From Prosthecobacter algae (GTDB lineage: Bacteria; Verrucomicrobiota; Verrucomicrobiia; Verrucomicrobiales; Verrucomicrobiaceae): a stretch of DNA of 64,000 nt. The position numbers were made by a program, and so were the translations under genes. The notes under the pieces were generated by a model that did no database searches, was not told the DNA's origin, and worked only from the letters and a program-made list of their open reading frames with translations. Positions within the stretch are counted from its first letter, which is position 1, and each line of letters starts with the position of its first letter. The stretch lies in NCBI RefSeq assembly GCF_039542385.1, contig NZ_BAABIA010000005.1, forward strand, positions 62,001 through 126,000, in the 5' to 3' direction. Positions 8,471 to 49,130 of the stretch are shown one piece after another.

Positions 8471-9889
8471 ATGAACTCTCAATCACTCACCCGCCTCGGC
8501 ATTCCTGATGGCCCGGCGCTGGGCTTCGGCCTAGCGTTCGTCGCCAATCAGGCCAGTGCTGGCGGCGACCCTTCCAGGCTGGAGGAAGACATCTGTGCGA
8601 TCGTCGCAGATCCAGCCGCTTTTCTAGGCGATCCTTTGCGCGAGTCTTTGGCTCGCGCTCTTTATGCGCCCGCTTACACGCAGCGCGATGCCCTGGCTCC
8701 CTGGCACCAGTGGGGATCTGGCCTCGAAGCCGGGGCCGCGCAGCAGCTGGCCAATGCCTGCGCGCTGCCGGTCGCTGTGGCCGGTGCGCTGATGCCGGAT
8801 GCGCATCAGGGTTATGGACTGCCCATCGGTGGTGTGCTCGCGACGGACAATTGCGTCATCCCCTATGCAGTGGGTGTGGACATCGCCTGTCGCATGAGGT
8901 TGAGCGTTTATGACCGCAAGGCCAATATCATTCCAGGCCAAAAAGGTCGCCTGGCCAACATCCTCGAACGTGAAACCAACTTCGGCATGGGAGGTGCGTT
9001 TAAAGACAAGCGGCACCACGAGGTCATGGACGAGGACTGGAATGTCTCGCCCATCACCCGACGCTTCAAGGACAAAGCCTGGGCTCAACTTGGCACGAGC
9101 GGTTCGGGGAATCACTTCGTCGAATTCGGTGCCTTTGAGGTCAAGGCAGACCAAGTGGAGGCGCTGAAAGAATCCGGTTTTGACATTCCGCCTGGTGAAT
9201 ACCTAGCCCTGCTCTCCCACAGTGGATCACGCGGCGCAGGGGCCCAAGTGTGCCAGCACTACAGCCACATCGCCATGGAGAGACGCTACGACCTGCCGAA
9301 GGACATGAAGCACCTGTCCTGGCTGACTTTTGAGGAAGAGGCGGGCCAGGAATACTGGGCCGCCATGAACCTCATGGGACGATACGCAGCGGCTAACCAT
9401 GCGTTGATTCACAAAACCATCGCCAAGAAGGTGGGTGCCCATGTCATCCTCGATATTGAGAACCATCACAACTTCGCCTGGAAGGAGACGCACGTCATCC
9501 AGGGCCAGGAGCGCGAGGTGGTGGTGCATCGCAAGGGGGCCACACCCGCTGCGGTGGGAGAGCTGGGCGTCATTCCCGGTTCCATGGCGACCCCCGGATT
9601 TGTCGTTAGGGGCCGGGGCAAACCAGGCTCCCTGAACAGCGCCTCCCACGGTGCCGGACGAGTGATGAGCCGGGCAGAGGCCAAGCAAAGCTTCACCTGG
9701 GGCGTTGTGAAAAAGCAGCTCACAGCGGCTGGGATTGAGCTCCTCAGCGCCGGCATCGACGAAGTGCCTGGAGTCTATAAAGACATTCACAGCGTCATGG
9801 CAGCCCAGCAAGATCTGGTGGAGGTGCTGGGGCAGTTCCAGCCGCGCATCGTCAAAATGTGTCCGGCTGGAGACAAGGCAGAGGATTAA
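8471..9889 (+). CDS. rtcB: RtcB-family RNA ligase
   Basis: 472 residues, full family length. RtcB joins RNA 3'-phosphate or 2',3'-cyclic phosphate ends to 5'-OH ends using GTP and Mn2+, repairing RNAs cut by ribotoxins or splicing tRNA. Metal and catalytic motifs are all present: GVDIACRM (Asp137, Cys140), GSGNHFVEF (Asn214, His215), LLSHSGSRG (His250), ENHHNFAWKE (about His332-333), HRKGATPA (His353) and SASHGAGR (His393, the residue guanylylated in known RtcBs). The ATG follows the last tRNA by 81 bases on the same strand, so co-transcription is likely. No rtcA, rtcR or prfH gene is adjacent. Confidence 0.95.
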   Translation: MNSQSLTRLGIPDGPALGFGLAFVANQASAGGDPSRLEEDICAIVADPAAFLGDPLRESLARALYAPAYTQRDALAPWHQWGSGLEAGAAQQLANACALPVAVAGALMPDAHQGYGLPIGGVLATDNCVIPYAVGVDIACRMRLSVYDRKANIIPGQKGRLANILERETNFGMGGAFKDKRHHEVMDEDWNVSPITRRFKDKAWAQLGTSGSGNHFVEFGAFEVKADQVEALKESGFDIPPGEYLALLSHSGSRGAGAQVCQHYSHIAMERRYDLPKDMKHLSWLTFEEEAGQEYWAAMNLMGRYAAANHALIHKTIAKKVGAHVILDIENHHNFAWKETHVIQGQEREVVVHRKGATPAAVGELGVIPGSMATPGFVVRGRGKPGSLNSASHGAGRVMSRAEAKQSFTWGVVKKQLTAAGIELLSAGIDEVPGVYKDIHSVMAAQQDLVEVLGQFQPRIVKMCPAGDKAED

Positions 9890-9999
9890 ATATGGCCACC
9901 CCGAATTCGCGGCCCACGTACGTGAATCCGCACTTTGCAGATGCCCTAACCTTGCCTTTGTCAGAGATCCCCTGGCAGGCGTAACTATAAAGCTGACAA

Positions 10000-10017
10000 A
10001 TTTGCCACTTGGCAAAT
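10000..10017. repeat. Perfect hairpin between rtcB and the HNH gene
   Basis: ATTTGCC (10000-10006), loop ACTT, GGCAAAT (10011-10017), not followed by a T-run. It lies in the 222-base gap between rtcB and the HNH gene and may be a processing site or weak terminator. The rest of the gap shows nothing clear. Confidence 0.5.
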
Positions 10018-10111
10018 GCCTAAGTTGCTGCACGATAAGTGCCCAACATAGAGGAACGAACACCGCGTCGTCCCTTCGTGCCGTCAATTCCCGTCAATAA
10101 GGAGCCGAAGC

Positions 10112-10729
10112 ATGAATGATGTGTTGAACAAATCTACTGTCCTAGTTTTGAACCGAAACTGGCAAGCCATCGGTGTGAAATCACCTGCCGATGCCTTTAG
10201 CATGATGGCCGCAGGCAATGCGACAGCGCTGAACATCTCTGCTGAAGATGACATGACACCCGTCACCTGGGAGGACTGGATGCGCCTGCCGGTGAACGAG
10301 GGCGACAACGCCATCGGCACTGTCCACGGTCCCGTGCGCGTGCCCACCGTCCTCGTCCTGGCCCGCTTCGACAGAGTGCCAAAGCGCAGGCCCAAATTCT
10401 GTGCCAAAGCCATCTGGGAACGCGATGGCGGCGTATGCCAATACACCGGGCGCAAGCTGAAGCCTAACGAGGGGAACATCGACCACATCGTCCCCGTTTC
10501 TCGCGGTGGCAAAAGCACCTGGGACAACTGCGTGCTGGCCGATAAAAAGGTGAATAGCAAAAAAGGCAGCAAGCTGCCCGAAGAAGCGGGGCTGAAACTC
10601 CTACGTCGCCCTTCCGCGCCGCGTGAGGTACCAGTGACCCAGCTCATTCGCAATACCTACCAAGTGCGCGACTGGGAGGTCTTCCTCGCCCACGCCGGCA
10701 TCTTCCAGACCGACCGTGCAGTCAGCTAA
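10112..10729 (+). CDS. HNH endonuclease family protein
   Basis: 205 residues. N-terminal VLVLNRNWQAIGVKSPADAF belongs to a bacterial HNH subfamily; the nuclease motif is GNIDHIVPVSRGGKSTWDNC (Asp124-His125 and Asn139) followed by KKVNSKKG with Asn148, after CQYTGRKL as a putative zinc/structural element. AAGGAG at 10099-10104, 7 bases before the ATG, is one of the better Shine-Dalgarno sites in the window and fixes the start. It follows rtcB on the same strand after 222 bases. This subfamily occurs as a stand-alone gene in related bacteria, so a functional tie to rtcB is uncertain. Confidence 0.85.
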   Translation: MNDVLNKSTVLVLNRNWQAIGVKSPADAFSMMAAGNATALNISAEDDMTPVTWEDWMRLPVNEGDNAIGTVHGPVRVPTVLVLARFDRVPKRRPKFCAKAIWERDGGVCQYTGRKLKPNEGNIDHIVPVSRGGKSTWDNCVLADKKVNSKKGSKLPEEAGLKLLRRPSAPREVPVTQLIRNTYQVRDWEVFLAHAGIFQTDRAVS

Positions 10730-10840: not shown

Positions 10841-11224
10841 TCAGATCTCCCCAAAATATTTCTCTCGCACGCGGACAATGGCGTCGAGCATGCCGTCGGC
10901 TTCTTCGCGGATCTTCGCATCCAGACTTGAGGCACTGCGATTGTAGCGGCGGTACAGCAACTTCAGTTGCGCCTGGATCTGGTCTTTCGGCATCTTCGGC
11001 GTGATCTCGCACATCTCCTCCGCACTGAGGGGAGCGGCGGCGATGTTAGCAGCTAGCACAGGCTTGGCGGCCTTTGGCAGCACCACTCCTTGCTTCGAAG
11101 GTTCTGACTTCGGGGCTTCGGGTCTGAGGGGCTGAGGCGAGGCTTTGGCCACAGGGGCAGGGGCTGCCGCAGGCTGCTTGGCCGCTTGTGACTTCGACAG
11201 CGATTGAAGGATCTTTTTGAACAT
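10841..11224 (-). CDS. Small protein of unknown function, third gene of FHA/Hsp70 operon
   Basis: 127 residues from MFKKILQSLSKSQAAKQ; an ATG 17 codons upstream would overlap the Hsp70 gene, so 11224 is preferred. Residues about 15-70 are Ala/Pro/Lys-rich and probably disordered. The C-terminal half (LSAEEMCEITPKMPKDQIQA ... LLYRRYNRSASSLDAKIREE ... IVRVREKYFG) looks helical and conserved. It starts 43 bases after the Hsp70 gene ends, so it may be a partner or adaptor of that chaperone. Not recognised as a named family. Confidence 0.65.
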   Translation of the reverse strand: MFKKILQSLSKSQAAKQPAAAPAPVAKASPQPLRPEAPKSEPSKQGVVLPKAAKPVLAANIAAAPLSAEEMCEITPKMPKDQIQAQLKLLYRRYNRSASSLDAKIREEADGMLDAIVRVREKYFGEI

Positions 11225-11267
11225 GACGTTGGGCGTTCGGGGTTCGGAGGCGGGGCGTGCGTACAGG

Positions 11268-12758
11268 TTACTCAATGCGCATCGTGCGCAGGTGGGCTGT
11301 CTTGCGCTTCAGATCTTCATCGGACAAAACACCGGCTCCTTTATAGCTCACCGCCACCTCGCGGCTGCGGCCCGACTGCTTGTCCATCACCAAGGCGCGT
11401 ACCCGTTGGTTTTCATCATAGCTGAAGGTGACGGCCACCTCGCAGCCCTTCGGTCGGTTGGGCGGCACCTCCAAGGTGATGCGACCGATGACATCCACGA
11501 ATTTTGAGTCCTCATCTTCTCCTTGAGTGATGTCCACCTCGATCACTCTCTCATTGTCTTCGCTGGTCTGGTAGATCTGCGTACGGGAGCAAGGGATCGG
11601 GGTGTTTTTCGGAATCACCACGGAATTCATCAGCTTCTCCTCACCCGTCTTGGCATTGTAAACCATGGCCACTGTGCCGTAGCTGGCGTTGCATACTTCC
11701 TGGATGCGTGCGGATTTCTTGGCAAACAGGGCCGCGCCCAGCGCCACGCACTCATCGACATTGCCACAGGACTTCGGCGTCTTGCCAAACATCTTGTCCA
11801 GCATCGTCTTCACCTTGGGAATGCGGGTGGAGCCGCCCACGAGCACCACGTGGTCGATGTCGCTCACCTTCAGCTTGGCAGAGTCCAGTGCCTGCTCCAC
11901 TAGCATCACCGTGCGGGTCAGCATGTGGCGGATCATTTTCTCAAACGTCTCGCGCGTGAGGTCGATACGGGCCAGGCCATCGTTCTTGTCATTCGCCACC
12001 GTGTCATTCACACGCTGCAGCTTCGAGAGCATCTTCTTGGCATCTTCCGTGGCCAGCAGTACACGACGGCGATGGCGCTCATCATTGAAAAGGGGTGCCC
12101 CGGTCTGCTTCGTGTATTGCTCCCCGTAGGCAGCCAGCAGCATGTCATCAAAATTGCTGCCACCTAGATGACGCGCTCCTTCGCTGGTCAGGATTCGGAT
12201 GTTGTCCCCTTCCACATCGAGGATGGTCACATCCAGCGTGCCGCCGCCCAGGTCATACACCAGGATGCGTCCCTTCACCCCCTGGCTGTGCGCATAATAC
12301 ACGGCCGCAGCCGTGGGCTCATTCACCAGCCGCCGCACCTTCATCCCGGCCATCTCCGCCGCCGCGATGGTGCTTTTGCGCGCCAGTTCATTGAAGTTCG
12401 CTGGCACAGTGATGACGACCTCGTTGATGTCGCCAATGATCTTCGAACAATCGCGCCTCAGCTTGGCAAGGATCAGCGCAGAAATTTCGGCAGGCGTCCA
12501 TTTCTTGCCGTCGATCTCCACCAGGTGCTCCGGGTCATCCATGTAACGCTTAATCTGGAAGATCGTGCGGTCCGGCTCCCCCCCGTCGCGGGCCGGGCTG
12601 CCCACCAGCTTCACATCCTCGTGCGCCTCGAAGAACACCACCGAAGGAGTCAGGCGCTCACCGTCAGCGTTGGGCACGATCTCCGGGTTGCCGTCAGGTT
12701 TCAGATATGCCAAGCCCGAGAGCGTGGTGCCAAGATCAATGCCAACGTATTCAGCCAT
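11268..12758 (-). CDS. Hsp70-family protein with no C-terminal lid
   Basis: 496 residues. A complete actin-like ATPase domain is seen: YVGIDLGTTLSGLAYL (phosphate 1), VVITVPANFNELARKST, RLVNEPTAAAVYYA, ILVYDLGGGTLDVTI (phosphate 2) and HVVLVGGSTRIPKV (adenosine site). About 110 residues of beta substrate-binding domain follow, then the protein stops near DEDLKRKTAHLRTMRIE; the alpha-helical lid of DnaK (638 residues in E. coli) is missing. Such short Hsp70s are usually specialised. It lies between the FHA protein gene (36-base gap upstream) and a small gene (43-base gap downstream), implying one operon. Confidence 0.9.
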   Translation of the reverse strand: MAEYVGIDLGTTLSGLAYLKPDGNPEIVPNADGERLTPSVVFFEAHEDVKLVGSPARDGGEPDRTIFQIKRYMDDPEHLVEIDGKKWTPAEISALILAKLRRDCSKIIGDINEVVITVPANFNELARKSTIAAAEMAGMKVRRLVNEPTAAAVYYAHSQGVKGRILVYDLGGGTLDVTILDVEGDNIRILTSEGARHLGGSNFDDMLLAAYGEQYTKQTGAPLFNDERHRRRVLLATEDAKKMLSKLQRVNDTVANDKNDGLARIDLTRETFEKMIRHMLTRTVMLVEQALDSAKLKVSDIDHVVLVGGSTRIPKVKTMLDKMFGKTPKSCGNVDECVALGAALFAKKSARIQEVCNASYGTVAMVYNAKTGEEKLMNSVVIPKNTPIPCSRTQIYQTSEDNERVIEVDITQGEDEDSKFVDVIGRITLEVPPNRPKGCEVAVTFSYDENQRVRALVMDKQSGRSREVAVSYKGAGVLSDEDLKRKTAHLRTMRIE

Positions 12759-12794
12759 AACAGAGGATAGAATGAAAAAATGAAAAGACGACTA

Positions 12795-15700
12795 CTACTG
12801 GCTGGAGGTTCTCACCTCCACTTTGCGAAGGATGAATTCGTGACCCTCCTCACGGGAGTAGGCAAACCCTGAGCGGCAGCTTTCCACCACCCGAGGTTTG
12901 TTTTTTCCAGGCACGGACTCCACCACTGTGATGCGCTTGCGCAACTCCACATCCACTTCGGTACCACTGCCAATGTCAAATTCGCTGATGCCGTGCTGAA
13001 GGAGGATATCCTCAAACGAATGCCGCAGGGTGCGAAGCTGCGCCACCACATCCCCGCCATTGTAGCCCGCATACCGGGAACTGAGCGCATCAATGAGATC
13101 AATCCGCTTGATGATGTCATTGGCGAACATCACCACCGTGGCCTCCTCGGCAGGCAGGCCACGCCGCAGAATTTCGTGCTTCTCCTCCAGTTCCAAAAGC
13201 TGGCCACGCAGGCGGGCATCGATCTCTTTCCAGTGGTTCAACTGTGCCTCCGCCTGGGCAAACTCCGCTCGGCGGTCACTCAGCGTCGTCAGCTCCGCTT
13301 TCAGATGGGTCACGGCAGCGGCCTGCTCATGCAGTTGTGCATCCAGGTCTGCCAGCCGCTTCCGCTGCTCGCTCTCCTGGGCCTGGAGGGAGGCCGCTAG
13401 TTTCTCGGCCTGTTGCGTAAAGGTGGCCAGCTCCGTCTCCACAGCCGTCCGTTCCTTCCGTGCTTGCTCCGCACGTGCGGAGTCACGGTTCAGGGACTCT
13501 TGCAGGGCATTGATCTTCACCTGCAGCGCCAGCTCACGCTCCGCCGCATCCCTCAGGTTTTTGCTGGCTTCAGCCTGCCGGGTTTCCAGGCTGGCCAGGG
13601 CAGCCCCCAGGGAAAGGATCTGACCACCGACCTGGGTAAAGTCGCCCAGGCGGGTTTCCTCATGCCGGATTTTGTCCTGCAACTCGGCCATCACGGCAGT
13701 CCGGCCCTGGATTTCCTGGGTTTGCGTTTCCAGTTCCTTGGTCAGGCGGGTCTCTTCCAGCTTCAGCTTCTCCACCCGGTCCAGCCGCGTGCCCAGCTCC
13801 GTCTCCAGACCGTTCGCCTGAGTCCGGGCGGCATCAGCACGCTGGCGGGCTTCCTTCACCTCTTTTTCCAGATCTTGCTGGGCCTGCTCAGCAGCGCGGC
13901 TACCTTCCTGCGCAGCCTTCAGGCGTGCGGCTTCTTTGTCCACCTCCTCCTGGGCTTTCATCAGCCGCTCCTCACGCATTTTGTGGGCTTCTTCCAGTTG
14001 GGAAATCTGCTGCTGCAGCTCAGCGAGCTTTTTGTTAGAATTTTCAGTGGTGACGTTCAGGCGGGTGACGAATTGCGAGGCCTCTTCACGCTCCTTGGTC
14101 AGGCTCGTCATCATGGCCTGCAGACCTGCCAGCTCCGTGGTCAGGCCCGGGATCTGCTTGCGTAGCACCTTCTCCTCCTCGCGGGCACGAGTGGCCACGG
14201 CCTCGGCCTCCAGCCGCTTCGCCTCCACCACCTGCGCAGCCGCAGTGGCCTTTTGGAGGCGATTTTCCCAGTCTGCCGCCCGGGCTTCCTCCGCCTTGGC
14301 CTTTTTCGTCTGTTCGGAAATCTGGGTGTTCCATGCCTTGGATTCTGCCTCCAGTTTGGCGATGTCTTTGCGCAGTCCCTCCTGCTGCCGGGCCAGTTCG
14401 CCCAGGGCTTTTTCTTCGGTCAGGCGCTGCTTTTCAGCCTCTTTCACACCCTGGGTGGCACTCGCGAGTTTTTGCTGCACTTCCGCCAATTCAAGTAAAC
14501 GCTTTTCATCGGCTTCAATCTTCGTTTGCAGCTCGCGCAGGCGCGTCTCCGCAGCCGCAGCCTCAGCCAGCTTGGCTTTGGTTTCAGCCTCCAGATTGCT
14601 ACGCTTGTCGTTTAGCAGTTTCTCCAGGTTCGCCGTCTCCGCGCGCAGACTTTCCGTCTGGTCAAAGGCAGCGCGGCGATCAGCCTGGGCTTTTTCCAAA
14701 GCGGCGGCTGTCGACTGCTTGTCGCGCAGCAGCGTGGTCATCTCCGCCCGCAAGCTTTCGATCTCCGTCTTCAGGCCGGGCAATACTTTTTCATGCTCCT
14801 CACGCGCAGCCGCCAGCGGCGGCACCTGAGTGGAAAGTTTCTCATGCTTGGCCGTGATCTCGGCCAGCTCCGTGCGCCCCTTTGTCAGCCTGGATTCCAC
14901 GCTGGCCAGCTCCTGGGCCCGGGCCTCAAGTTGCGCAGTCTGCTGCGTCAGGGCAGCCACACGGGATTCGCTGGCAGCCAGATTATGCAGCTTCGCGGCC
15001 AGCTCCGCCTGCATTTTCTCGGCCTCGGCACGCAGGCCAGGGGTACGGGCTTCGTAGCCTTCAACCTCAGCTTGCAAGCGCTTGGCTTCCGCCTGGGCTT
15101 TGTCCCGGCTCTGTTCCGCAGACAGCAGGGCAGACTGGGCCTCCTTGGCGGACTCCAGGTTGGCTTTGATCTCCGCCCCAGCCTGCTCATTAGCCTTCTG
15201 GGCAGCGGCCAGCTTTTCCTGCTGCTGCTGCACATCTGCCTGCACTGCGCTGAGCTGCGCGGCGACGCTGGCAGCCTGCGCCTGCAATTGTGAGACTTTT
15301 TGTTCGGCAGCGGCCACATCCTGCACTTTCCCCGTCTGAGCAGCAGCCAATGTCACCAGCAGAGCTTCCAAACCTGTGATCTTCCCCTGCAATTCACCGG
15401 CCTGGGCACGTAGCTTTTGCTCCTCCACCGTAGCCGTGATGGCAGCCTGCTTTTGTGCTGCAGCTTCGCCCGTCGCCTTGTCCAGCTCCATTCGCGCGGC
15501 CTGGGCTTCCGCCCGCAAAGTGGTGATCTCCTTTTGCAGCGCGGCATGCTGGGCCACCACCTCACTGGCCTTGGTGGTGAATTCCTCGGTCTTCGCCTCC
15601 GCCGCCTTGGCCTCCTGCTGACGCTCAGCCAGCGCGGTTTCCGCCTGGCGCAGACTCTCACGAGCCTTCGCCACATCCGCAGTCAGCATCTCTTTCTGCT

Positions 15701-17516
15701 CCTCAATGCTGCGCACCTCTTTTTCCAAGGACTCCCGCCGCATCATCAGCGTTTGCGTGAGGCCATGCTGCGCCTTCCCCTTTTCCGTCGCGGCTAAAAG
15801 TTCCCGGGTCAACGCATCGCGCTCCTGGGACAGTTGGGAAATCGCCGTCGTCAGTTCCGCCTTGTGGGCCTCCACTGCTTTCAGTGCCTCGCTGGCACTG
15901 CTGAGCTGCGTATCCGTAGCCGCAAGATCATCCAGCTTATTTGTTAGGTCGCCCGAGCGTGTCTCAAGGGCTTTCAGCTCTTCGGCCTTCTGGCGCAGCC
16001 GCCCTTCCAGTGTGACCAGCTTTTGTGAAGCCTCCTCTTCCGCCTTCTTTTGATTGGAAATCAGATGCTCAGTTTGCTGGCGCAGATCCTGGATATGTGT
16101 TTCCAGCTTCAGCTTGGTCGCATTCAGAGACTCATGCTCAGAGGTCGCCTTGGCGTGATCGCCGGAAAGATCCTGAAGCCGCGCACTGGCCACAGCGCAT
16201 TGTTGGTCCAAATCGGCCAGCTTCGTCTCCAGCGCCGTTTGGTTGCCCGTCAGACCGGCCAGGGCAGCATCCAGCAGACGGCGTTTATTTTCTAGCTCCG
16301 CCAGGGCACCGGTGGTCTGAGTCAGGCTGGTTTCTTTGACCACCAATGTTTGCACCTGGGCCGTGAGTTGGTCTTCTTCCTGACGCAGCCTTTCCAGCGT
16401 CTTTTTCACCTCCTCCACTTCCGCCTGCCGCTGTGCCACCTGCGCGTCCAACGCCGCCAGCTCCGCACTGCGCTCACCCAAGGAAGCCTCATCCACTTCT
16501 GGAGAAACAGCCGCCAAGACAGCGGCAGCGGGCAATGAGGCCTCACTGAGATCCTGCTTCAGACGGGCCAGTTCTGCCGCGACCGTCTCCTTTTCTTTCA
16601 GGCTAGCGCTGCGGTCCGCACTCGCTTTGTCTGCCTCGGCATGCAGCGCCTGCAAACTCTTGCTCGCCACGGCAATGTCATCCTGCACCTTGGCCAGTGC
16701 ACTGCGGCTGGACTCCACCTGACTGTCCAAATTTGCAGCTTCACGTCGTTTGATAGCCAGCTTTGCCAGCTCATCTTCCGAATTGATCAGGCTGCTCTTG
16801 ATCTCCACGGTCCGGCTTTCCAGGTCAGCCAAGGTTTTGCGGCCCTCTTCGACCTGCCTTTCCAGCACCCGCAGTTCCTCCCGCCGCAGCGTCTCCTTTT
16901 CATTTTCACGGCGCAGCAGATCACGCTCCTTTTGCAGCCTGCTCACTTCCTCTCTCAGTTCATCCGCCTGCTTTTGCTGCGCGGTGTCTACAGGAGCAAC
17001 CCGCTGGATCAACATGCCGTGCGCGGCTGCCACAGAAGGCCCTTTGATGCCCATGTCAGGTCTGCCCAGGGGCGTCTTCGTGGGCTCCACCTGGCTCGTT
17101 TCAGACTTTGGCTCCACATCCTTTGCAGGCACGGACTCCGTGTCCCCACGTTTGCCATCCGTTCGGAAGGGCTGGCCCTTCGCTGCCACATTTTTGGCCT
17201 CAGTCGATGGTGCCATCCCTTTGGGGGCTCGTTCACGAAACCTCGAGTCAAGCTGGCCAAAACGAATTTTGTCCCCCCCCTTCACCCTCATACGGTCGAT
17301 CCGCTTCCCATTCACGAAAGTACCGTTCGATGACTTCAAATCCACCAGCTCATACACCCCATCCGCCTGACGGATGAACTCGGCGTGAAACCCCGAAATG
17401 TACGTGTTATCAATGACGATGTCGTTCTTCGCATCCCTGCCGATGGAAAGACGCTCTTCGAGGATATCGAAGACGAATTCATTTCCGTCGTTGAGGTTAA
17501 AGGCCAAATAAGGCAT
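12795..17516 (-). CDS. FHA-domain protein with giant coiled coil
   Basis: 1573 residues. The N-terminal FHA domain (about residues 20-95) has the phosphothreonine-binding signature: LSIGRDAKND, TYISGFHAEF and LKSSNGTFVNGKRI. A Pro/Lys-rich linker follows to about residue 165, then more than 1300 residues of heptad-type Ala/Leu/Glu/Lys/Gln sequence predicted to form a very long coiled coil. The last 100 residues (DIIKRIDLIDALSSRYAGYN ... VVAQLRTLRHSFEDILLQHG) look like a small folded end. No transmembrane segment is seen. A scaffold or filament controlled by Ser/Thr phosphorylation is plausible; it heads an operon with the Hsp70 gene. Confidence 0.88.
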   Translation of the reverse strand: MPYLAFNLNDGNEFVFDILEERLSIGRDAKNDIVIDNTYISGFHAEFIRQADGVYELVDLKSSNGTFVNGKRIDRMRVKGGDKIRFGQLDSRFRERAPKGMAPSTEAKNVAAKGQPFRTDGKRGDTESVPAKDVEPKSETSQVEPTKTPLGRPDMGIKGPSVAAAHGMLIQRVAPVDTAQQKQADELREEVSRLQKERDLLRRENEKETLRREELRVLERQVEEGRKTLADLESRTVEIKSSLINSEDELAKLAIKRREAANLDSQVESSRSALAKVQDDIAVASKSLQALHAEADKASADRSASLKEKETVAAELARLKQDLSEASLPAAAVLAAVSPEVDEASLGERSAELAALDAQVAQRQAEVEEVKKTLERLRQEEDQLTAQVQTLVVKETSLTQTTGALAELENKRRLLDAALAGLTGNQTALETKLADLDQQCAVASARLQDLSGDHAKATSEHESLNATKLKLETHIQDLRQQTEHLISNQKKAEEEASQKLVTLEGRLRQKAEELKALETRSGDLTNKLDDLAATDTQLSSASEALKAVEAHKAELTTAISQLSQERDALTRELLAATEKGKAQHGLTQTLMMRRESLEKEVRSIEEQKEMLTADVAKARESLRQAETALAERQQEAKAAEAKTEEFTTKASEVVAQHAALQKEITTLRAEAQAARMELDKATGEAAAQKQAAITATVEEQKLRAQAGELQGKITGLEALLVTLAAAQTGKVQDVAAAEQKVSQLQAQAASVAAQLSAVQADVQQQQEKLAAAQKANEQAGAEIKANLESAKEAQSALLSAEQSRDKAQAEAKRLQAEVEGYEARTPGLRAEAEKMQAELAAKLHNLAASESRVAALTQQTAQLEARAQELASVESRLTKGRTELAEITAKHEKLSTQVPPLAAAREEHEKVLPGLKTEIESLRAEMTTLLRDKQSTAAALEKAQADRRAAFDQTESLRAETANLEKLLNDKRSNLEAETKAKLAEAAAAETRLRELQTKIEADEKRLLELAEVQQKLASATQGVKEAEKQRLTEEKALGELARQQEGLRKDIAKLEAESKAWNTQISEQTKKAKAEEARAADWENRLQKATAAAQVVEAKRLEAEAVATRAREEEKVLRKQIPGLTTELAGLQAMMTSLTKEREEASQFVTRLNVTTENSNKKLAELQQQISQLEEAHKMREERLMKAQEEVDKEAARLKAAQEGSRAAEQAQQDLEKEVKEARQRADAARTQANGLETELGTRLDRVEKLKLEETRLTKELETQTQEIQGRTAVMAELQDKIRHEETRLGDFTQVGGQILSLGAALASLETRQAEASKNLRDAAERELALQVKINALQESLNRDSARAEQARKERTAVETELATFTQQAEKLAASLQAQESEQRKRLADLDAQLHEQAAAVTHLKAELTTLSDRRAEFAQAEAQLNHWKEIDARLRGQLLELEEKHEILRRGLPAEEATVVMFANDIIKRIDLIDALSSRYAGYNGGDVVAQLRTLRHSFEDILLQHGISEFDIGSGTEVDVELRKRITVVESVPGKNKPRVVESCRSGFAYSREEGHEFILRKVEVRTSSQ

Positions 17517-17669: not shown

Positions 17670-18455
17670 ATGAATCCCCGCAGATTTTTAAAACTTTTTA
17701 GCCTCGCCGTCACCCTCACGGCTTCTTTTTCGCCATTAAACGCCTTCAGCGCCGCCGTTGAACTCTCTCCGGCCCAGCTCCAGCGAGTGGGACAGCGCAT
17801 CTGGCAAAACGAATGCGCAGGCACGGTGGCAGGACTGACAAGCTGGAACTCGGGCGAAGATTTTGCATCGTTAGGGATCGGTCATTTTATTTGGTATCCT
17901 GCAGGCAAGAAAGGACCGTTTGAAGAAAGTTTCCCCCCCCTCGCCACCTTTTTGCAGAGCCGGGGAGTAGAAATGCCAGACTGGACCACTGGCCCCTGCC
18001 CCTGGACCAGCAAGGCCAACTTCGAAGCGGACAAAGACGGCCCGCGTCAGACCGCCCTCCGGGCCATCCTGGTCAAAACCGTCTCCCTACAGACCGAATT
18101 CATCATCGCTCGGCTTCAGCGTGCCCTGCCCAAGATGAAAGCCAGCTCCAAAAAACCTGCCCTCGTCCAGGCCCACTTCGATGCTCTCCTGGCCAGCCCC
18201 GAAGGTGCCTTCTGCCTCATTGATTACGTCAATTTTAAAGGCGAAGGCACCGCCCCAACCGAGCGTTACAACGGCCAGGGCTGGGGCCTCCTTCAAGTCC
18301 TCGAAGGCATGAAGCAACCCACCCCCGCCGCCTTTGCCGAAGCCTCCAAAACCGTCCTCAGCCGCCGTGTGCAAAACGCGCCCGCAGCCCGCAAGGAACA
18401 GCGCTGGCTCGCTGGCTGGCACAACCGCTGCGACGGATACAAACGGAAGCTGTAA
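17670..18455 (+). CDS. Secreted protein of unknown function
   Basis: 261 residues with an N-terminal signal peptide (RRFLKLFSLAVTLTASFSPL, cleavage likely after AFSAA). The mature part begins with a conserved-looking block: IWQNECAGTVAGLTSWNSGE, DFASLGIGHFIWYPAG and FEESFPPLATFLQ. Three Cys are spread along it. The spacing of Glu, Trp and Gly residues hints at a glycan-acting or lysozyme-like fold, but I do not recognise a catalytic motif and do not assign one. Confidence 0.75.
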   Translation: MNPRRFLKLFSLAVTLTASFSPLNAFSAAVELSPAQLQRVGQRIWQNECAGTVAGLTSWNSGEDFASLGIGHFIWYPAGKKGPFEESFPPLATFLQSRGVEMPDWTTGPCPWTSKANFEADKDGPRQTALRAILVKTVSLQTEFIIARLQRALPKMKASSKKPALVQAHFDALLASPEGAFCLIDYVNFKGEGTAPTERYNGQGWGLLQVLEGMKQPTPAAFAEASKTVLSRRVQNAPAARKEQRWLAGWHNRCDGYKRKL

Positions 18456-25997: not shown

Positions 25998-28900
25998 TTA
26001 GGGAGCAAAACGTTTGGATTCGAGAACGCGGAAGCGGTAGTAGCTCTCAAGCGGCTTCAAGCTAAACGGATTGGCTGCCGAAGCATAATCCACATCGAGT
26101 CCCGCTTCCTGCATGTCCGTCTGGTCAATGTAACGCTCGACCAGGAAAGATCCGCGGAACTCGCCGACGGGGAGGTCCAGGGCAGGATCAAACTGATTGG
26201 CGGCCACAGAACGACGGGCTTTGCGGATGGCCTGGGCCCGCACATGCACCCGGAAGGTGTTCGAGCGGGTGGTGAACTTGGAATACAAGTTTGCGTAAGG
26301 CTTCTCACGGGTGTTGTCGCCCGTGGAGCAATGGGCACTCCAGAACCGAGCCATGGCGTCCCTGCGTTTCGTCGGAGTATCGACCGCAGAGGCCGAGACA
26401 TTACCCTCAGCCGGCACGCCCGGAACCTCGCTAGGAATCAGGTGAATCTCGCAAAGTTGGGAAGCTGTGCGGAAAAGCCCACCACGGAAACCATCCCCCA
26501 AGTTCGGCGAGAAGTTAAATCGCTCCTCAAACTGGCGAAGTGTACCCTGAACCAAGTTGTCCTTGGTATTGGCGGGGTCCCACCAAAGCCTAGCACCAGC
26601 CCGGAACTGATCCACCACGATGGACCGGTGCCAATATTTGTTGTCAGCCTCACTGCGGAAGATCGGTGCAGAAGAGCCATTGGTACCCCAGCCTGTGCGG
26701 ACACTTTTCGACTGCTCATAGTCCCCATTAGGCAAGGCCGCCATGATTTCACCCTTCATGGCTGCATGGACGGCGGTAGCACGGCGAATGTGCGTGAAGG
26801 GCATCATCTGGTAGTTCAGGTTGATCTTGCCCGCCGTGGATAGAGACTCGCTGATTGCGTAAGGCTCGACCACCGGCATCCAGAAAAGGTCCAGGAGGTA
26901 ATGATCGGGCGGAGACGTGGCACCTGGATGTGTCGGGGCTGCATTGGAAATGCCTCCCGTCACAGGGTTGAGGTAGGTTACGTAAGGTCGGAACAGGAGG
27001 TTCGTCCATGCACCGTTGCCATTCGCATCCCAGATACGTGATGGCAGAGAACCCATGACCACTGGTGAGGGAACCATGCGGTTCGGCGAGAAGTAGTTGC
27101 CCTGACCGCTGGCAAAACGGGCCGACTGGCTGTTTGACCGGAAGTAAGTGGACCGCCATTTCTTGGCATCTGGCCAGCCGGTAAGCCTGAAATCACCCAC
27201 CGAGTAGTTGCCTTCATCCACTTTGTTGATGAAGGGGCCAATGCGTCCACCTGGATCGGAATCATCAAAGTCATAATAACGCTGGATCGAATCAGCGGCC
27301 AGCCGGGTATGAGGCAAATCCGGCGTGCGGCCTGCACCCAAGCCATTGGTACCATCCAGAACTACACTTTTTGGCAATCCCCGTACATCGGTGTTCACGG
27401 CACTGTCCGTCACGCTGGCTGAACCGCGATCAAATCCTGGCTCAGTCCCGGCTGTGTAGGAGGAGAAGTTATGGGCCGTGTAAACATCTTCATTGTTCCA
27501 ATAGCGGTGGGGCGTCCAATCCGTAGCAGGAACGATCTTCTTGGCCGCAATGATACGCGGATCGCCCTGAGCGGGCATTAGGGTGCGCACGACATCCGAA
27601 CCAAAGTGCCATGGCCGGTCCCAGTTAACCAATTCGCGCGCGTCTTCATTGCGCAATTGAATGTCTTGAACGCCGTTTTGAGGATCATTGAGCGGCCCGT
27701 AACCAATGGCAGCCAAACGGTTGGTGCGGATGAGTTCATTTTGCTGAAGCTCCACACCGATGTAGTTAGCGGCATCTTTGCCGTAGATAAGGGCGACCGC
27801 TCCTGGCACACTCTGATTATTGTTACCAGCCACGCGTGGATCATAAGCACGGGTATTGGTCTGAATGTTAACGTTATCCCAACGGTAGAAACGGCCTCTA
27901 ATGCCACGGGTGGTCGTTGCTTGTTCAACGTCGATGCGATTACCAGCATCATCAAAACGGGCCAAGGCACCATCCCGGCTGAAGCTCCACCAGCGTGGTG
28001 CCTGGATGGCTGGGTGGTTGTAAGTGCTGCCGTCGGTATTGGTGTAGTTGACGGTATAGGAGCCTGCCGTGACAATGTCAGGAGTCGGGGAAGACCCTTC
28101 ACTCAGCCGGAAATTGATGATCTGCACGGGCTCCTCATTGGTATTGGCCTGAACATGGTGGTCGTAAATCCTAATCGTCATTTCTGAGGATGAGAAAGTG
28201 AGCTTCTGGTTGTGATTGACGGTGAAGAAGCCGGAAACCAAGTCCATGTTGACCAGCCCAGAATGCACCTGGCTCGTCGCGTTTTCATCATAACCTCCAT
28301 CTGCAGGCATGGTGGAACGACTGCTCACACGGCGTCCCAGGGCCACGTTGCGGAAACTGGCGAAACCACCGATTTCCGGGTGGCCATCTGTCTCATACAA
28401 AGGACGCTCACTGCGAAGGGCCACGGCATCATTGGTGGGGAAAATGGCGCGACCATTGACTTCAATGCTGTTCAGATTTGTAACCACAATGGTGTAATCT
28501 GGATTGATCTCCGTGTAGGCGGCCGAAGGGCAGAAGAACTCAAGCTGCAGAAGAGCCTGCACGCGTTTTTGATTGATGGCCAGTGGCGTATCAAAATCCA
28601 AGGTCCAGTTCCAGTTGCGCCAGTCATACCCTGGATGCAGGCGGTAATAACGGCCATAGTTAGGGCTGGTTTCCGGTGCGGCAACGCCTGTCGTTCCATA
28701 AAATCCGGCCTGCTGAGGGTTACGCAGGGGGGGGTAATTGGAATAATAACGTTCCTTGATCATGTTGGCGGCTGGCGTGACGCCATCCGGCTGGGTAGTG
28801 CCATTTCTCCAGTGGACAGCATCCACATTGGTGAGGCGAGCTGTGCCGCCATCAAAACCGTTCGGGAAGCCATGCAAGATGTGGAACCCTTCCAGATCTT

Positions 28901-31247
28901 CTTCACGAACGCGGAGGGCTGTGCGGCCACCGCTGACCACTGGAATGGCCGCCTGGGCAGCGGCATCCAGATTGCCAGGAGCAATGGCCGGAATTCTGAA
29001 ATCACCTGGCTTTGCCGTCGGACCGGTCTCAAGGGCAGGAATTCTCCAACTATACATGTCGGGCTGGCCATCGGCGGTACAAATGAACTGAAGCCCGATT
29101 TCACTCAGAGAGATGAAGCGGCCAAAACCCCGAATAGCCTCAGGGGGCACCGTGGGACTTTTCCAAGTGGGGTGCTCCGAAGGTGTCACCTGACCGTGAC
29201 CAGGCAGAAAGCGATCTGCAAAAGGATCCGCCAAGTTCGTGGCGTTGGAGGCATTCCGGACGACTCCAGGCGTGAATGTTTTGAACTGACCCTGTTGCGT
29301 ATCCCGTATTTTGTAAAGATTTGTCCAAGCCATGTCGTTGCTCTGAAGCCAGTTGCTGCGGCTCTGGGGCACCATGAAGCTATCATAAAGATTGGTGCTG
29401 CGGATGTAGTCAAACATGCTCACCAGAAGCTGGCGCGCATTGTCCACTCCGAGTTTTTCGCTGCTCTTGAAAGACTTGGCCGTGGCATTGCCTTCCTCTG
29501 AAGCGGTTGGGAAAGGCTGGTCCAGAATCTTGTCGAGCATGCTCAACAGCTTGCCGTTCCGAGACAGATTGATGTCAGACTTGGCACCACTAGCCGAGCC
29601 GACGATCGTCGCAGAATTTTCCCGCTGAAAGATGTAGCTGTTGCCAGTGTCGGGATTGCCATTGGTCCCCAGGCGGGAACAAAATTCCATGAGTTTGTCG
29701 AAGCCAGTGCGTTTGTCGATCGAGTGAGACACGGGCCACATGGCGATGCGTGGAAGGCCGAAAAGGTTGATCTCACTGCCTCGGCTCTGAGCTGTGAGGA
29801 AGGCGCTCGAACGCTCCAGACTGGTCTTGTTAAACAAAGTCACGCGGTCATTGACCTGGGCGGAGTTGAGGATACGACGTCCGGCATTAGCCCCCTGGGC
29901 AAAGAGCAGCTCATCCACGCTGGAGTAAAGACGCTCTCCCATGGCCACGGCAATCGCAGAGGCATTATTGGTATCTCCGGTGACCGTTCGATAGTCATCC
30001 TGCTCGAAGGTGGTGGTCCCCGCCTTGCTGCCGCCGGTGTGAATGCGCGGCATGATTTCATAAAGCCGCTCTTTGACAGCAAGGATAGTTGACTGCTCTG
30101 TGCCGGAGACCGGACCCCGAAGGCCATAGGTATCCAGGCTGCGATTTTCATCCTGAAGTGGGTTCGGGTAGAATACGCTGCTGAGGGCAACAGTCGCAGG
30201 ATGGCCAGGGAAACGTTGATATTCGCTGCGTGCAGGTGGAAAGTCGGCCCAGCGGTGGTCACGCTCATGGTAATAGATCGGCAGACCGGCATAGGTCGGC
30301 TCAGCAGCGGTGTTGATGTTGATCTTGCTGGTTTCGTCGTCCGTCCAGAATGCGACACGACCGACGATGGGATTGGCTTCGGAAGGGACGCCATACTGCT
30401 CATTGGCATCCACCGAAGGCCCCTGACCCAGGCCACCTTCCGCGCTATTGAGCACGCGGAACTCCAACGAGTCTTCCAGCAGGTATCCGACAGCGCCGTC
30501 TTTCAGCACATACAGCCACTGGACGGGCATCGCCAAACGCAGTTGGTCAATCCCGGCGCCAGCGCCGGTAGGCTTGATAATGGGCTGTAAAGCATCGCCC
30601 ACGGCACCGTCGCCAATGTTGTTAGAGTTGATCTGCGTATTGGTGTCGTAAGAGAAGCCTTCCACCGGCACCTCGGCGTTGGTTGGGTCAATGTCCTGAC
30701 CAGCGCGCGGATCAATGATCGGGAAAAAAATCTGGGCATTGTCCTGGTTCGTCTGGGCTCCCGTGACCACGCCTTTGATGACGGGATCATTCATGTCCAC
30801 GTATCGGGCGGCATTTCTGACGTCGTTCCAATTGCTGGGTGGCTCTGACTGGCTCACAAACTCGCGTTCCCGGACATTCAGACCACCGCCCGCACCTCGA
30901 AAGATCATGTCCTTGTCAGAGAAGAGCTTGTAGCCAGCCAGGAATGCGCCACTGGCAGCGTATTTACGGACGGCACCGGGCTGGGTGGCATGGATCACTG
31001 GCACGCCCTCGCTTTCACGGGCTGCACCAGAACGAATCTGGGCGATGACCATGTTCACAGCCGTATCCGCAAAGCGGCGCGAAGCCTGGGAAGCGGAGTA
31101 AATGTTCGTGGCCTTGTTCTCAGTGTCTGCAACACTCAAGAAGGCCAGGATAACGATGGTAGCCAAGGCGAGCATCGAAAGAACGATGATCAAGGCTAAC
31201 CCTTGGTGACGCCGGGCGTCTGCAAGGAAGAGGCGGATGTGTTTCAT
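25998..31247 (-). CDS. Verru_Chthon cassette protein A, very large
   Basis: 1749 residues. N-terminal HQGLALIIVLSMLALATIVI is a GspK/PilX-like membrane stem and is followed by SVADTENKATNIYSASQASR, a pattern of the cassette A family. The bulk is periplasmic, rich in Asn/Arg/Tyr, with segments about a display of dates of assembly not recognisable as enzymes. It likely forms the tip or core of the pseudopilus-like structure made with B, C and D. A promoter-like sequence and the terminator of the giant gene lie just upstream, so A-C-D probably form their own transcription unit. Confidence 0.85.
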   Translation of the reverse strand: MKHIRLFLADARRHQGLALIIVLSMLALATIVILAFLSVADTENKATNIYSASQASRRFADTAVNMVIAQIRSGAARESEGVPVIHATQPGAVRKYAASGAFLAGYKLFSDKDMIFRGAGGGLNVREREFVSQSEPPSNWNDVRNAARYVDMNDPVIKGVVTGAQTNQDNAQIFFPIIDPRAGQDIDPTNAEVPVEGFSYDTNTQINSNNIGDGAVGDALQPIIKPTGAGAGIDQLRLAMPVQWLYVLKDGAVGYLLEDSLEFRVLNSAEGGLGQGPSVDANEQYGVPSEANPIVGRVAFWTDDETSKININTAAEPTYAGLPIYYHERDHRWADFPPARSEYQRFPGHPATVALSSVFYPNPLQDENRSLDTYGLRGPVSGTEQSTILAVKERLYEIMPRIHTGGSKAGTTTFEQDDYRTVTGDTNNASAIAVAMGERLYSSVDELLFAQGANAGRRILNSAQVNDRVTLFNKTSLERSSAFLTAQSRGSEINLFGLPRIAMWPVSHSIDKRTGFDKLMEFCSRLGTNGNPDTGNSYIFQRENSATIVGSASGAKSDINLSRNGKLLSMLDKILDQPFPTASEEGNATAKSFKSSEKLGVDNARQLLVSMFDYIRSTNLYDSFMVPQSRSNWLQSNDMAWTNLYKIRDTQQGQFKTFTPGVVRNASNATNLADPFADRFLPGHGQVTPSEHPTWKSPTVPPEAIRGFGRFISLSEIGLQFICTADGQPDMYSWRIPALETGPTAKPGDFRIPAIAPGNLDAAAQAAIPVVSGGRTALRVREEDLEGFHILHGFPNGFDGGTARLTNVDAVHWRNGTTQPDGVTPAANMIKERYYSNYPPLRNPQQAGFYGTTGVAAPETSPNYGRYYRLHPGYDWRNWNWTLDFDTPLAINQKRVQALLQLEFFCPSAAYTEINPDYTIVVTNLNSIEVNGRAIFPTNDAVALRSERPLYETDGHPEIGGFASFRNVALGRRVSSRSTMPADGGYDENATSQVHSGLVNMDLVSGFFTVNHNQKLTFSSSEMTIRIYDHHVQANTNEEPVQIINFRLSEGSSPTPDIVTAGSYTVNYTNTDGSTYNHPAIQAPRWWSFSRDGALARFDDAGNRIDVEQATTTRGIRGRFYRWDNVNIQTNTRAYDPRVAGNNNQSVPGAVALIYGKDAANYIGVELQQNELIRTNRLAAIGYGPLNDPQNGVQDIQLRNEDARELVNWDRPWHFGSDVVRTLMPAQGDPRIIAAKKIVPATDWTPHRYWNNEDVYTAHNFSSYTAGTEPGFDRGSASVTDSAVNTDVRGLPKSVVLDGTNGLGAGRTPDLPHTRLAADSIQRYYDFDDSDPGGRIGPFINKVDEGNYSVGDFRLTGWPDAKKWRSTYFRSNSQSARFASGQGNYFSPNRMVPSPVVMGSLPSRIWDANGNGAWTNLLFRPYVTYLNPVTGGISNAAPTHPGATSPPDHYLLDLFWMPVVEPYAISESLSTAGKINLNYQMMPFTHIRRATAVHAAMKGEIMAALPNGDYEQSKSVRTGWGTNGSSAPIFRSEADNKYWHRSIVVDQFRAGARLWWDPANTKDNLVQGTLRQFEERFNFSPNLGDGFRGGLFRTASQLCEIHLIPSEVPGVPAEGNVSASAVDTPTKRRDAMARFWSAHCSTGDNTREKPYANLYSKFTTRSNTFRVHVRAQAIRKARRSVAANQFDPALDLPVGEFRGSFLVERYIDQTDMQEAGLDVDYASAANPFSLKPLESYYRFRVLESKRFAP

Positions 31248-49047: not shown

Positions 49048-49130
49048 AAGCAAGGAGGGGGGGGAACTGAAAGGTTGGTTACGGCCAATTGTCCTGGCAA
49101 ACGGGGGGGAGACAATTACACAAACGAAGG

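Follow-up and report, generated by a model that had tools for sequence, protein, structure and literature searches.

We found that three neighbouring genes in a 64,000-nucleotide stretch of Prosthecobacter algae DNA (the window) form a real and conserved operon encoding an FHA-coiled-coil protein, a lidless Hsp70 and a small protein, and that the giant coiled coil ends in a domain that is GrpE-like in sequence and predicted structure. We give a probability of roughly 0.5 to the reading that the operon encodes a dedicated Hsp70 machine, in which a tethered, probably phosphothreonine-anchored exchange factor would work with a degenerate J-like partner. The features of the locus, in window positions, are as follows.

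12795..17516, minus strand: coding sequence of the giant protein (1573 aa), with FHA domain, linker, long coiled coil and GrpE-like C-terminal domain
17256..17447, minus strand: FHA domain, residues 24-87, with GR, S..H and SSNGT motifs (Pfam PF00498, E 1e-19)
17127..17147, minus strand: GDTESVP, residues 124-130, in the linker after the FHA domain; candidate phosphothreonine site, from the pattern in relatives
13302..16991, minus strand: long coiled coil at approximately residues 176-1405 (from composition, and from periodicity compared with shuffles)
12858..13289, minus strand: GrpE-like domain, residues 1410-1553 (Pfam, predicted structure, Foldseek, VIA-align)
11268..12758, minus strand: coding sequence of the lidless Hsp70 (496 aa)
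11682..11696, minus strand: VCNAS as interdomain linker where DnaK has VLLLD (seen on alignment with the DnaK proteins of this genome)
10841..11224, minus strand: coding sequence of the small protein (127 aa from its ATG), with amphipathic N-terminal helix, disordered linker and putative J-like C-terminal domain
11189..11221, minus strand: amphipathic N-terminal helix FKKILQSLSKS, possible membrane anchor (hydrophobic moment, model)
10853..11029, minus strand: putative J-like domain, residues 66-124, with helices 68-71, 80-98 and 103-124 (predicted model, fold and profile comparison)
10934..10942, minus strand: NRS at the place of the J-domain HPD motif (register from hhalign)

All three genes lie on the minus strand as open reading frames of the window, with gaps of 36 bases between the FHA-coil gene and the Hsp70 gene and 43 bases between the Hsp70 gene and the small gene. 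The latter figure takes the ATG at 11224 as the start of the small gene, a choice backed by relatives; with it, the coordinates and spacing given in an earlier reading of this DNA (the sequence-only reading) are right. The genes and their order are firmly established, and the arrangement is not due to chance because it recurs in many genomes. Of 189 genomes of the window organism's order, 86 contain both the Hsp70 and the small protein, which are adjacent (starts within 2.5 kb on one contig) in 84, and 81 contain both the Hsp70 and the GrpE-like domain, which are adjacent in 71, so the gene-neighbourhood conservation on which the sequence-only reading had staked its case was largely borne out. 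The ten non-adjacent Hsp70/GrpE-like pairs lie on different contigs: one (G099) looks like a true separation, judging by the lengths of its contigs, another (G481, locus L097) probably is one, and the others may be contig breaks. Two sets of loci were inspected, each of which overstates the marker by which its loci were chosen. Among 20 loci picked via the small protein, the Hsp70 and the small protein were present in all, the GrpE-like domain in 19 and the FHA domain in 17, the other three being cut by a contig end. Among 37 loci picked via the GrpE-like domain, 33 had the Hsp70, which is broken in L096, and 31 had the small protein; L115 and L123 stop just after the GrpE-like domain, L102 and L111 stop inside the Hsp70 gene, and in L097 and L121 the sequence continues but has no Hsp70. 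A phylum-wide draw (n = 387) yielded 9 members with the small protein and 9 with the Hsp70 (E<=1e-95), and the system is therefore concentrated in the order, where it also occurs in the named strain Brevifollis gellanilyticus NBRC 108608 (L103). A mobile-element or phage origin was rejected: the small protein had no match in plasmid records, and the 36 phage records that match the Hsp70 are all below 60% identity, with the ten listed at 33-35%.

The FHA domain, already proposed by the sequence-only reading, is firmly assigned by its Pfam match and by the usual GR, S..H and N-G residues. In the linker that follows, the strict GDTESVP pattern was found in 27 of 33 distinct genus-type proteins, the other six comprising three close variants and three proteins without it. 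Near-heptad periodicity extends over about residues 180-1400 (best period 3.41-3.52, z 1.1 to 4.7 against shuffles, in a scan confined to periods 3.40-3.65). The long coil thus stands as first described, but its length does not: instead of more than 1300 residues, periodicity gives about 1230, roughly 180 nm by length arithmetic if the coil is continuous. Among frames in which both the FHA and the GrpE-like ends were seen, the whole protein ranges from 276 to 2161 aa, with short forms of 477 aa (L043) and 276 aa (L225); the two ends are kept and the length of the coil varies freely.

At its C-terminus the giant protein is GrpE-like, as judged from profile matches and a predicted structure. Pfam GrpE matched the window domain with an E value of 6e-5 and 23.2 bits, below the curated cut-off of 25.8, and matched 13 of 14 aligned members at the lax limit of E<=10 (best 5.4e-9). 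The curated cut-off was exceeded in 18 of 23 same-genus genomes, by frames of 263-2097 aa; the window genome's own GrpE-like end is absent from this listing, which we take as a miss of the loose first pass. The AlphaFold2 model of the domain (pLDDT 87.9) has the long helix, helical bundle and beta domain of the GrpE fold. With this model, all nine Foldseek matches at E<=0.001 were GrpE or GrpEL1, and superpositions on GrpE over the whole length gave TM 0.40-0.50. VIA-align returned several GrpE entries at Z 9.5-10.2 (rmsd 2.5-2.8 over 103-105 residues); unrelated helical bundles reached up to Z 11.2 among the listed matches, and beyond model residue 166 only GrpE entries reached among the 50 matches listed. 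Comparison of the domain profile with PDB sequences found no GrpE, and NCBIfam gave nothing useful for the isolated domain. A coiled-coil artefact as the source of the match was rejected, as the matches extend into the beta domain and those at E<=0.001 are all to GrpE proteins. The window genome also encodes an ordinary GrpE and an ordinary DnaJ. The GrpE-like end of the coil is the key feature absent from the sequence-only reading.

That reading had proposed a phosphorylation-controlled filament assembled by the Hsp70. With a GrpE-like domain at the end of the coil, the simpler view is that the giant protein serves the Hsp70 as a co-chaperone. On that view the coil is part of a chaperone machine, and the evidence does not support a filament dependent on a chaperone. 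In its general form, with the giant protein as a structural filament or scaffold whose assembly is served by the Hsp70 and the small protein, the idea gains from the very long near-heptad coil, from an FHA domain that could control assembly, and from two loci (L044, L212) where an FHA coil protein without a GrpE-like end lies beside the Hsp70 and the small protein. We consider it quite improbable and set it aside: a GrpE-like end is found on the coil protein in nearly all relatives seen (19 of the 20 small-protein loci), and a filament could hardly tolerate a coil that varies freely, down to the shortest forms above, with both ends kept. Against it also stand four loci (L218-L221) with the Hsp70 and the small protein and without an FHA or GrpE-like match in the upstream stretch examined (upstream genes were read for L219, L220 and part of L221).

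The 496-aa Hsp70 was matched by Pfam with an E value of 1.1e-101, and it lacks the lid, as had been claimed, because the profile match stops at 509 of 599; its 496 residues finish in a conserved tail and include no alpha-helical lid. Its ATPase motifs (the phosphate and adenosine motifs of the nucleotide-binding domain) are intact. Relatives are 495-569 aa long in 55 of 57 frames, the other two being cut, and a truncated pseudogene was rejected on the ground that relatives keep both the short form and the tail. Two full DnaK proteins of 623 and 650 aa are encoded in the same genome. The operon Hsp70 misses the curated NCBIfam cut-offs for DnaK (361 against 648 bits) and HscA (296 against 709 bits). 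The VLLLD linker was found in none of 57 distinct relatives, and V-C/A-N in all 57. The arginine that contacts HPD is retained in 56 of these 57, which would be unexpected if the machine never encountered HPD.

Occurrence across genomes bears on which Hsp70 the exchange factor serves. Of 103 genomes with a GrpE-like match, 22 had no lidless Hsp70, and of 88 with this Hsp70, 7 had no GrpE-like match; the two partners are therefore separable. The FHA-GrpE protein might thus be a tethered exchange factor for ordinary DnaK, besides or instead of the operon Hsp70, with adjacency reflecting co-regulation. Those 22 genomes fit this alternative, as do FHA-GrpE proteins of 467 to 1885 aa with no Hsp70 in the stretch examined (L132, L135, L136, L138, L139, L144-L147). 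We regard it as unlikely, given that the two genes are adjacent in 71 of the 81 genomes having both and that their association exceeds chance (Fisher p 3e-24, relatedness ignored).

For the small protein, the best reading is a J-like co-chaperone in which HPD is missing, an assignment weaker than the GrpE-like one; it resembles such a protein more than the filament adaptor previously suggested. The J reading was noted before the Foldseek search, in which the first five matches of the small-protein model were J domains at E 0.6 or worse and no match had E<=0.001. In VIA-align, J domains scored up to Z 5.8, mixed with ribosomal chains and a designed repeat, all at Z 6.0 or less. Alignment of the small-protein profile with the J domain by hhalign scored 20.99 (probability 18.6%; reversed alignment 10.9) in the register predicted beforehand by eye. 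With two distant hand-added relatives included, this score was reached by 0 of 300 column shuffles; the match is weaker without them, as their omission lowers the score to 17.77, which 3 of 300 shuffles reach and which beats the other 297. An L29 control (an alignment of 6 of 18 sequences) scored 9.2. N-x-x rather than the HPD motif occupies the HPD position in 44 of 44 rows and 41 of 41 distinct aligned members. Pfam DnaJ matched none of 15 small-protein members, and neither PDB sequences searched with the profile nor NCBIfam gave anything useful for this protein. The profile matches L141 and not L142, a distant relative whose protein has an N-terminal hydrophobic stretch, a TerB domain (E 4.6e-12) and a similar stretch at its end, and adjoins two Hsp70 genes and a GrpE-like gene. 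A search for further TerB-type relatives in the class of G291 found G291 itself only (1 of 146). At the other end of the small protein, the hydrophobic moment of FKKILQSLSKS was matched by 0.05% of 2000 shuffles, and the model places a helix at residues 3-11.

Several of these results would equally suit an unrelated helical-hairpin adaptor, in which case the operon would consist of an Hsp70, a tethered exchange factor and their own adaptor. The missing Pfam DnaJ matches, the Foldseek E values, the equal VIA-align scores of other hairpins and the 3 of 300 shuffles all lean that way. Set against them are the 0 of 300 shuffles with the hand-added relatives, in a register foreseen by eye, the low L29 control and the TerB protein with its similar tail. 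We give this alternative a real though lesser chance and tentatively prefer the J-like reading.

In the dedicated Hsp70 machine that we favour, the lidless Hsp70 would be the motor and the GrpE-like end of the giant protein its nucleotide exchange factor, probably as a parallel dimer on the coil. Through its FHA end, the giant protein would bind a partner phosphorylated on threonine and so keep the exchange factor within about 0.2 micrometres of it. The small protein, as a J-like partner that lacks HPD and probably sits on the membrane through its amphipathic helix, would position the Hsp70 or restrain its ATPase in the manner of Pam16, with no DnaJ-type stimulation. Lacking the lid and having a changed linker, the Hsp70 would hold its clients for a short time, so that clients would be released wherever the exchange factor sits. 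A more speculative extension, which we rate as somewhat unlikely, is that HPD and VLLLD were lost together and that the position of the exchange factor took over control from J-stimulated hydrolysis: FHA would pin GrpE to a phosphorylated site, the J-like partner would hold the Hsp70 at the membrane and coil length would set the distance, leaving a cycle ruled by geometry and phosphorylation. If true, a component commonly seen as soluble and in charge of timing, the nucleotide exchange factor, would here be a positioned, kinase-addressable part. A natural Hsp70 lacking the lid and the standard linker, with a J-like partner lacking HPD, would also make directly testable which parts an Hsp70 needs.

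The sequence-only reading knew of no described system with this set, and among the matches listed from the open-access literature we likewise found neither an FHA-GrpE protein nor an account of this operon. If the small protein is indeed J-like, the operon would fill the same three roles as bacterial DnaK-GrpE-DnaJ: Hsp70, exchange factor of GrpE type and J-like partner. It differs in lacking the lid, the VLLLD linker and HPD and in fusing the exchange factor through a long coil to FHA, and the ordinary DnaK, GrpE and DnaJ are present besides in the window genome. DjlA is laid out as a transmembrane segment, TerB and a J domain; the L142 relative resembles it in its N-terminal hydrophobic stretch, TerB and J-like tail, whereas that tail has no HPD and the window small protein has no TerB. 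In Myxococcus xanthus, the second Hsp70 SglK (MXAN_6671) and the GrpE homologue GrpS (Mxan_6672) have consecutive locus tags, and passages of the two sources describe SglK as a PRK00290 protein that acts in extracellular fibrils and social motility and rescues growth of an E. coli dnaK mutant (PMC8265645, PMC10313047). The operon likewise has an additional Hsp70 beside a GrpE-like gene; in contrast, SglK restores growth of the E. coli mutant and belongs to PRK00290, and GrpS is described in those passages just as containing a GrpE domain. HSP70 and GrpE genes also neighbour each other in the GTPase-centred GAP1-N2 conflict systems, found mostly in Actinobacteria and Firmicutes, where a subset has a second HSP70 without the peptide-binding domain and FNIII proteins are fused to DnaJ or TPR, according to passages of PMC7159879. 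The neighbouring HSP70 and GrpE-type genes are shared with our operon, whereas the operon has no GTPase and those passages describe no FHA-GrpE fusion for GAP1-N2 (PMC7159879). The mitochondrial import motor (mtHsp70, Mge1, Pam18, Pam16) differs in including the HPD protein Pam18, a kind of partner that the operon lacks, and in having neither FHA nor coil. According to PMC12953747, its Pam16 has no HPD and blocks stimulation by Pam18; common to the motor and the operon are a dedicated Hsp70, its exchange factor and a protein, putatively J-like in the operon, that lacks HPD.

The three-gene unit proposed in the sequence-only reading was confirmed on the minus strand of the window, with the positions given there and intergenic gaps of 36 and 43 bases:

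12795-17516, minus strand: FHA-coil protein, 1573 aa
11268-12758, minus strand: lidless Hsp70, 496 aa
10841-11224, minus strand: small protein, 127 aa

The first protein carries an FHA domain (Pfam E 1e-19), and its residues ~180-1400 show a periodicity near 3.5 residues (3.41-3.52, with only 3.40-3.65 tried; z 1.1 to 4.7), while z is below 1 at both ends. By length arithmetic, a coil of 1230 residues would span ~180 nm if continuous. The earlier reading had missed a Pfam GrpE match at residues 1410-1553 (E 7e-4 with the whole protein, 6e-5 with the domain alone). This domain scores below the curated Pfam cut-off (23.2 vs 25.8 bits); among 23 same-genus genomes, 18 have frames (263-2097 aa) that pass it, and at E<=10 all but one of the 14 aligned members give a match (best 5.4e-9). 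The predicted structure of the domain (pLDDT 87.9) comprises three helices, one long and two shorter, together with a beta domain. When this model was searched with Foldseek, all nine matches at E<=0.001 were GrpE or GrpEL1, with TM scores of only 0.40-0.50, which we attribute to differently placed long helices (rmsd 18-24). VIA-align returned five GrpE entries at Z 9.5-10.2 (rmsd 2.5-2.8, 103-105 residues) and the M. tuberculosis GrpE entry at Z 7.8, in a list where unrelated helical bundles reached Z 11.2. Among the 50 rows listed, only GrpE rows extended beyond model residue 166 and therefore only those cover the beta domain. Taken together, the Pfam match, the predicted structure and the fold searches indicate that the giant protein consists of FHA, coil and GrpE-like parts.

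Both ends were found in 50 distinct frames of 335-2161 aa at the fetched loci, counting frames of at least 300 residues, some of which stop at a contig end. The 335 aa frame (L227) appears broken, the frame at L225 has 276 aa, and a further open frame of 2396 aa, listed in the order-wide GrpE-like search, lies outside the 50. The FHA and GrpE-like ends are thus constant and the spacer between them is variable. Just after the FHA domain, a GDTES-I/V-P stretch occurs in 27 of 33 distinct proteins by a strict pattern; three of the other six have close variants and three have none. FHA proteins such as GarA have a phosphorylated self-ligand, and by this likeness the stretch could be a phosphorylated self-ligand of the FHA domain. 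No kinase was found among the six window proteins scanned with Pfam.

The second protein is an Hsp70 (Pfam E 1.1e-101) whose match stops at position 509 of the 599 in the profile. In an alignment with both DnaK proteins encoded by this genome, its phosphate, adenosine and NEP motifs are retained, as is the IKR lysine; the beta substrate-binding domain is present, and the protein ends where the lid would begin. Its linker reads VCNAS instead of VLLLD, which was absent from all 57 distinct Hsp70 relatives, each of which has V-C/A-N. The arginine that contacts HPD (R167 in DnaK; PMC8215388) is retained in 56 of the 57. The same review names three bacterial Hsp70 types, DnaK, HscA and HscC; the operon protein is far from the NCBIfam cut-offs of the DnaK and HscA models.

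The small protein has conserved ends and a variable middle, and is modelled as an N-terminal helix, a disordered stretch and helices at 68-71, 80-98 and 103-124 (confidence ~90). Its C-terminal part was marked as J-like before the fold-search results were known, because RRYNRS occupies the place of KYHPD. Foldseek ranked J domains 1-5 (E 0.6 to 1.2). In VIA-align, J domains reached Z 5.8 and a Tim14-Tim16 complex entry 5.6, beside a designed repeat at 5.7 and ribosomal chains, the highest at 6.0; the tool cautions that values of this size may reflect no more than a common arrangement. The ribosomal chains are presumably L29-type proteins. Profile comparison of a first small-protein set with 27 J domains gave P 0.0066. 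With 44 rows, including members of greater divergence as well as two tails chosen by eye, those of L141 and L142 (loci of distant relatives), it gave P 0.0013 and a probability of 18.6% in the same register. None of 300 column shuffles reached this score (best 19.44 vs 20.99); the reversed alignment scored 10.9 and six L29 sequences 9.2. Without L141 and L142 the score was 17.77 (P 0.0068), reached by 3 of 300 shuffles. Pfam DnaJ matched none of the 15 members scanned. The HPD place reads N-x-x in all 44 rows (41 of 41 distinct). According to PMC8215388, no tested system keeps ATPase stimulation once the histidine or aspartate of HPD is changed; the small protein should therefore not stimulate its partner in the usual way.

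Distant relatives also bear on the J-like reading. In genome G291, of the same phylum, consecutive genes encode a GrpE-like protein (Pfam E 5.5e-4), two Hsp70 and a protein that combines a hydrophobic N-terminal stretch with TerB (E 4.6e-12) and a J-like tail; the two Hsp70 genes (L142:5191-8359, minus strand) are tandem duplicates, flanked by the other two. In genome G208, the consecutive genes are those for a GrpE-like protein (E 0.01), for an Hsp70 and for a protein of 326 aa whose N-terminus is hydrophobic and whose tail is J-like. Both GrpE matches are below the Pfam cut-off. The small-protein profile matched the L141 tail (6e-9) and gave no match to the L142 tail. The layout of hydrophobic N-terminus, TerB and J-like tail resembles DjlA, and we regard this likeness as the best independent support for what may be a J-like domain.

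To examine conservation, 189 genomes were drawn from the order of the window genome. Of these, 88 have the lidless Hsp70 (E<=1e-130), 92 have the small protein and 103 have a GrpE-like match. Hsp70 and small protein co-occurred in 86 genomes, adjacent in 84, and Hsp70 and GrpE-like match in 81, adjacent in 71. Seven genomes had the Hsp70 without a GrpE-like match and 22 the reverse; the stretches fetched at L136, L138, L144, L146 and L147, for example, encode an FHA-GrpE protein and no Hsp70, and two broken copies (L216 and L227) are also among these cases. The coil protein and the Hsp70-small protein pair lie at separate places in genome G099, the coil protein lacks the GrpE-like end at L044 and L212, and at L218-L221 the sequence retrieved upstream of the Hsp70 (1.3 to 3.9 kb) contains neither an FHA nor a GrpE-like match. 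Therefore, Hsp70 and small protein form the firmest unit. Across a phylum draw of 387 genomes, 9 have the Hsp70 at E<=1e-95 and 9 have the small protein.

Several further observations were made around these genes. Genome G421 has the Hsp70-small protein pair twice (contigs C79 and C99), and the C99 copy (L226) has an apparent ammonium-transporter gene upstream in place of the FHA-GrpE gene. Proteins of 189 and 177 aa (L130:4805-5371 and L134:6505-7035, both minus strand), next to what we read as housekeeping genes, combine a hydrophobic N-terminus with a match to the GrpE-like profile and are possibly membrane-anchored GrpE-like proteins; a Pfam scan of the L130 protein gave no GrpE match. In part of the genus, a second FHA protein (214-273 aa) lies upstream of the operon, beyond the divergent neighbour gene in the loci inspected. 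Neighbouring features are:

Window 17670-18455, plus strand: divergent neighbour, 261 aa, no Pfam match; of 37 loci, at least 14 have a similar frame next to the operon
Window 8471-10729, plus strand: RtcB ligase and HNH endonuclease genes, convergent with the operon
Window 31399-49053 (minus strand) and 25998-31247: adjoining open frames for very large proteins, 5884 and 1749 aa
L036:209-853, L037:207-854, L033:11067-11714, L039:11087-11734, L040:11408-12229: second FHA protein

The components are of known kinds; among the open-access papers listed by our searches, we found no description of the FHA-GrpE fusion or of an Hsp70 system in which lid, linker motif and HPD have all been lost. The FHA-coil-GrpE protein together with the lidless Hsp70 is firm, and the J-like role of the small protein is tentative. 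We propose that the operon encodes a private Hsp70 machine, in which the J-like protein would fix the position of the Hsp70. The GrpE-like end would reset the Hsp70 and would itself be tethered, through the FHA end, to a site with phosphothreonine. The J-like protein would probably act at the membrane via its amphipathic N-terminal helix, because the hydrophobic moment of this helix is reached by 0.05% of 2000 shuffles and two distant relatives have hydrophobic N-termini. The small protein's proposed domain, J-like and without HPD, would resemble Pam16, which is also J-like without HPD and blocks the stimulation by Pam18 (PMC12953747).
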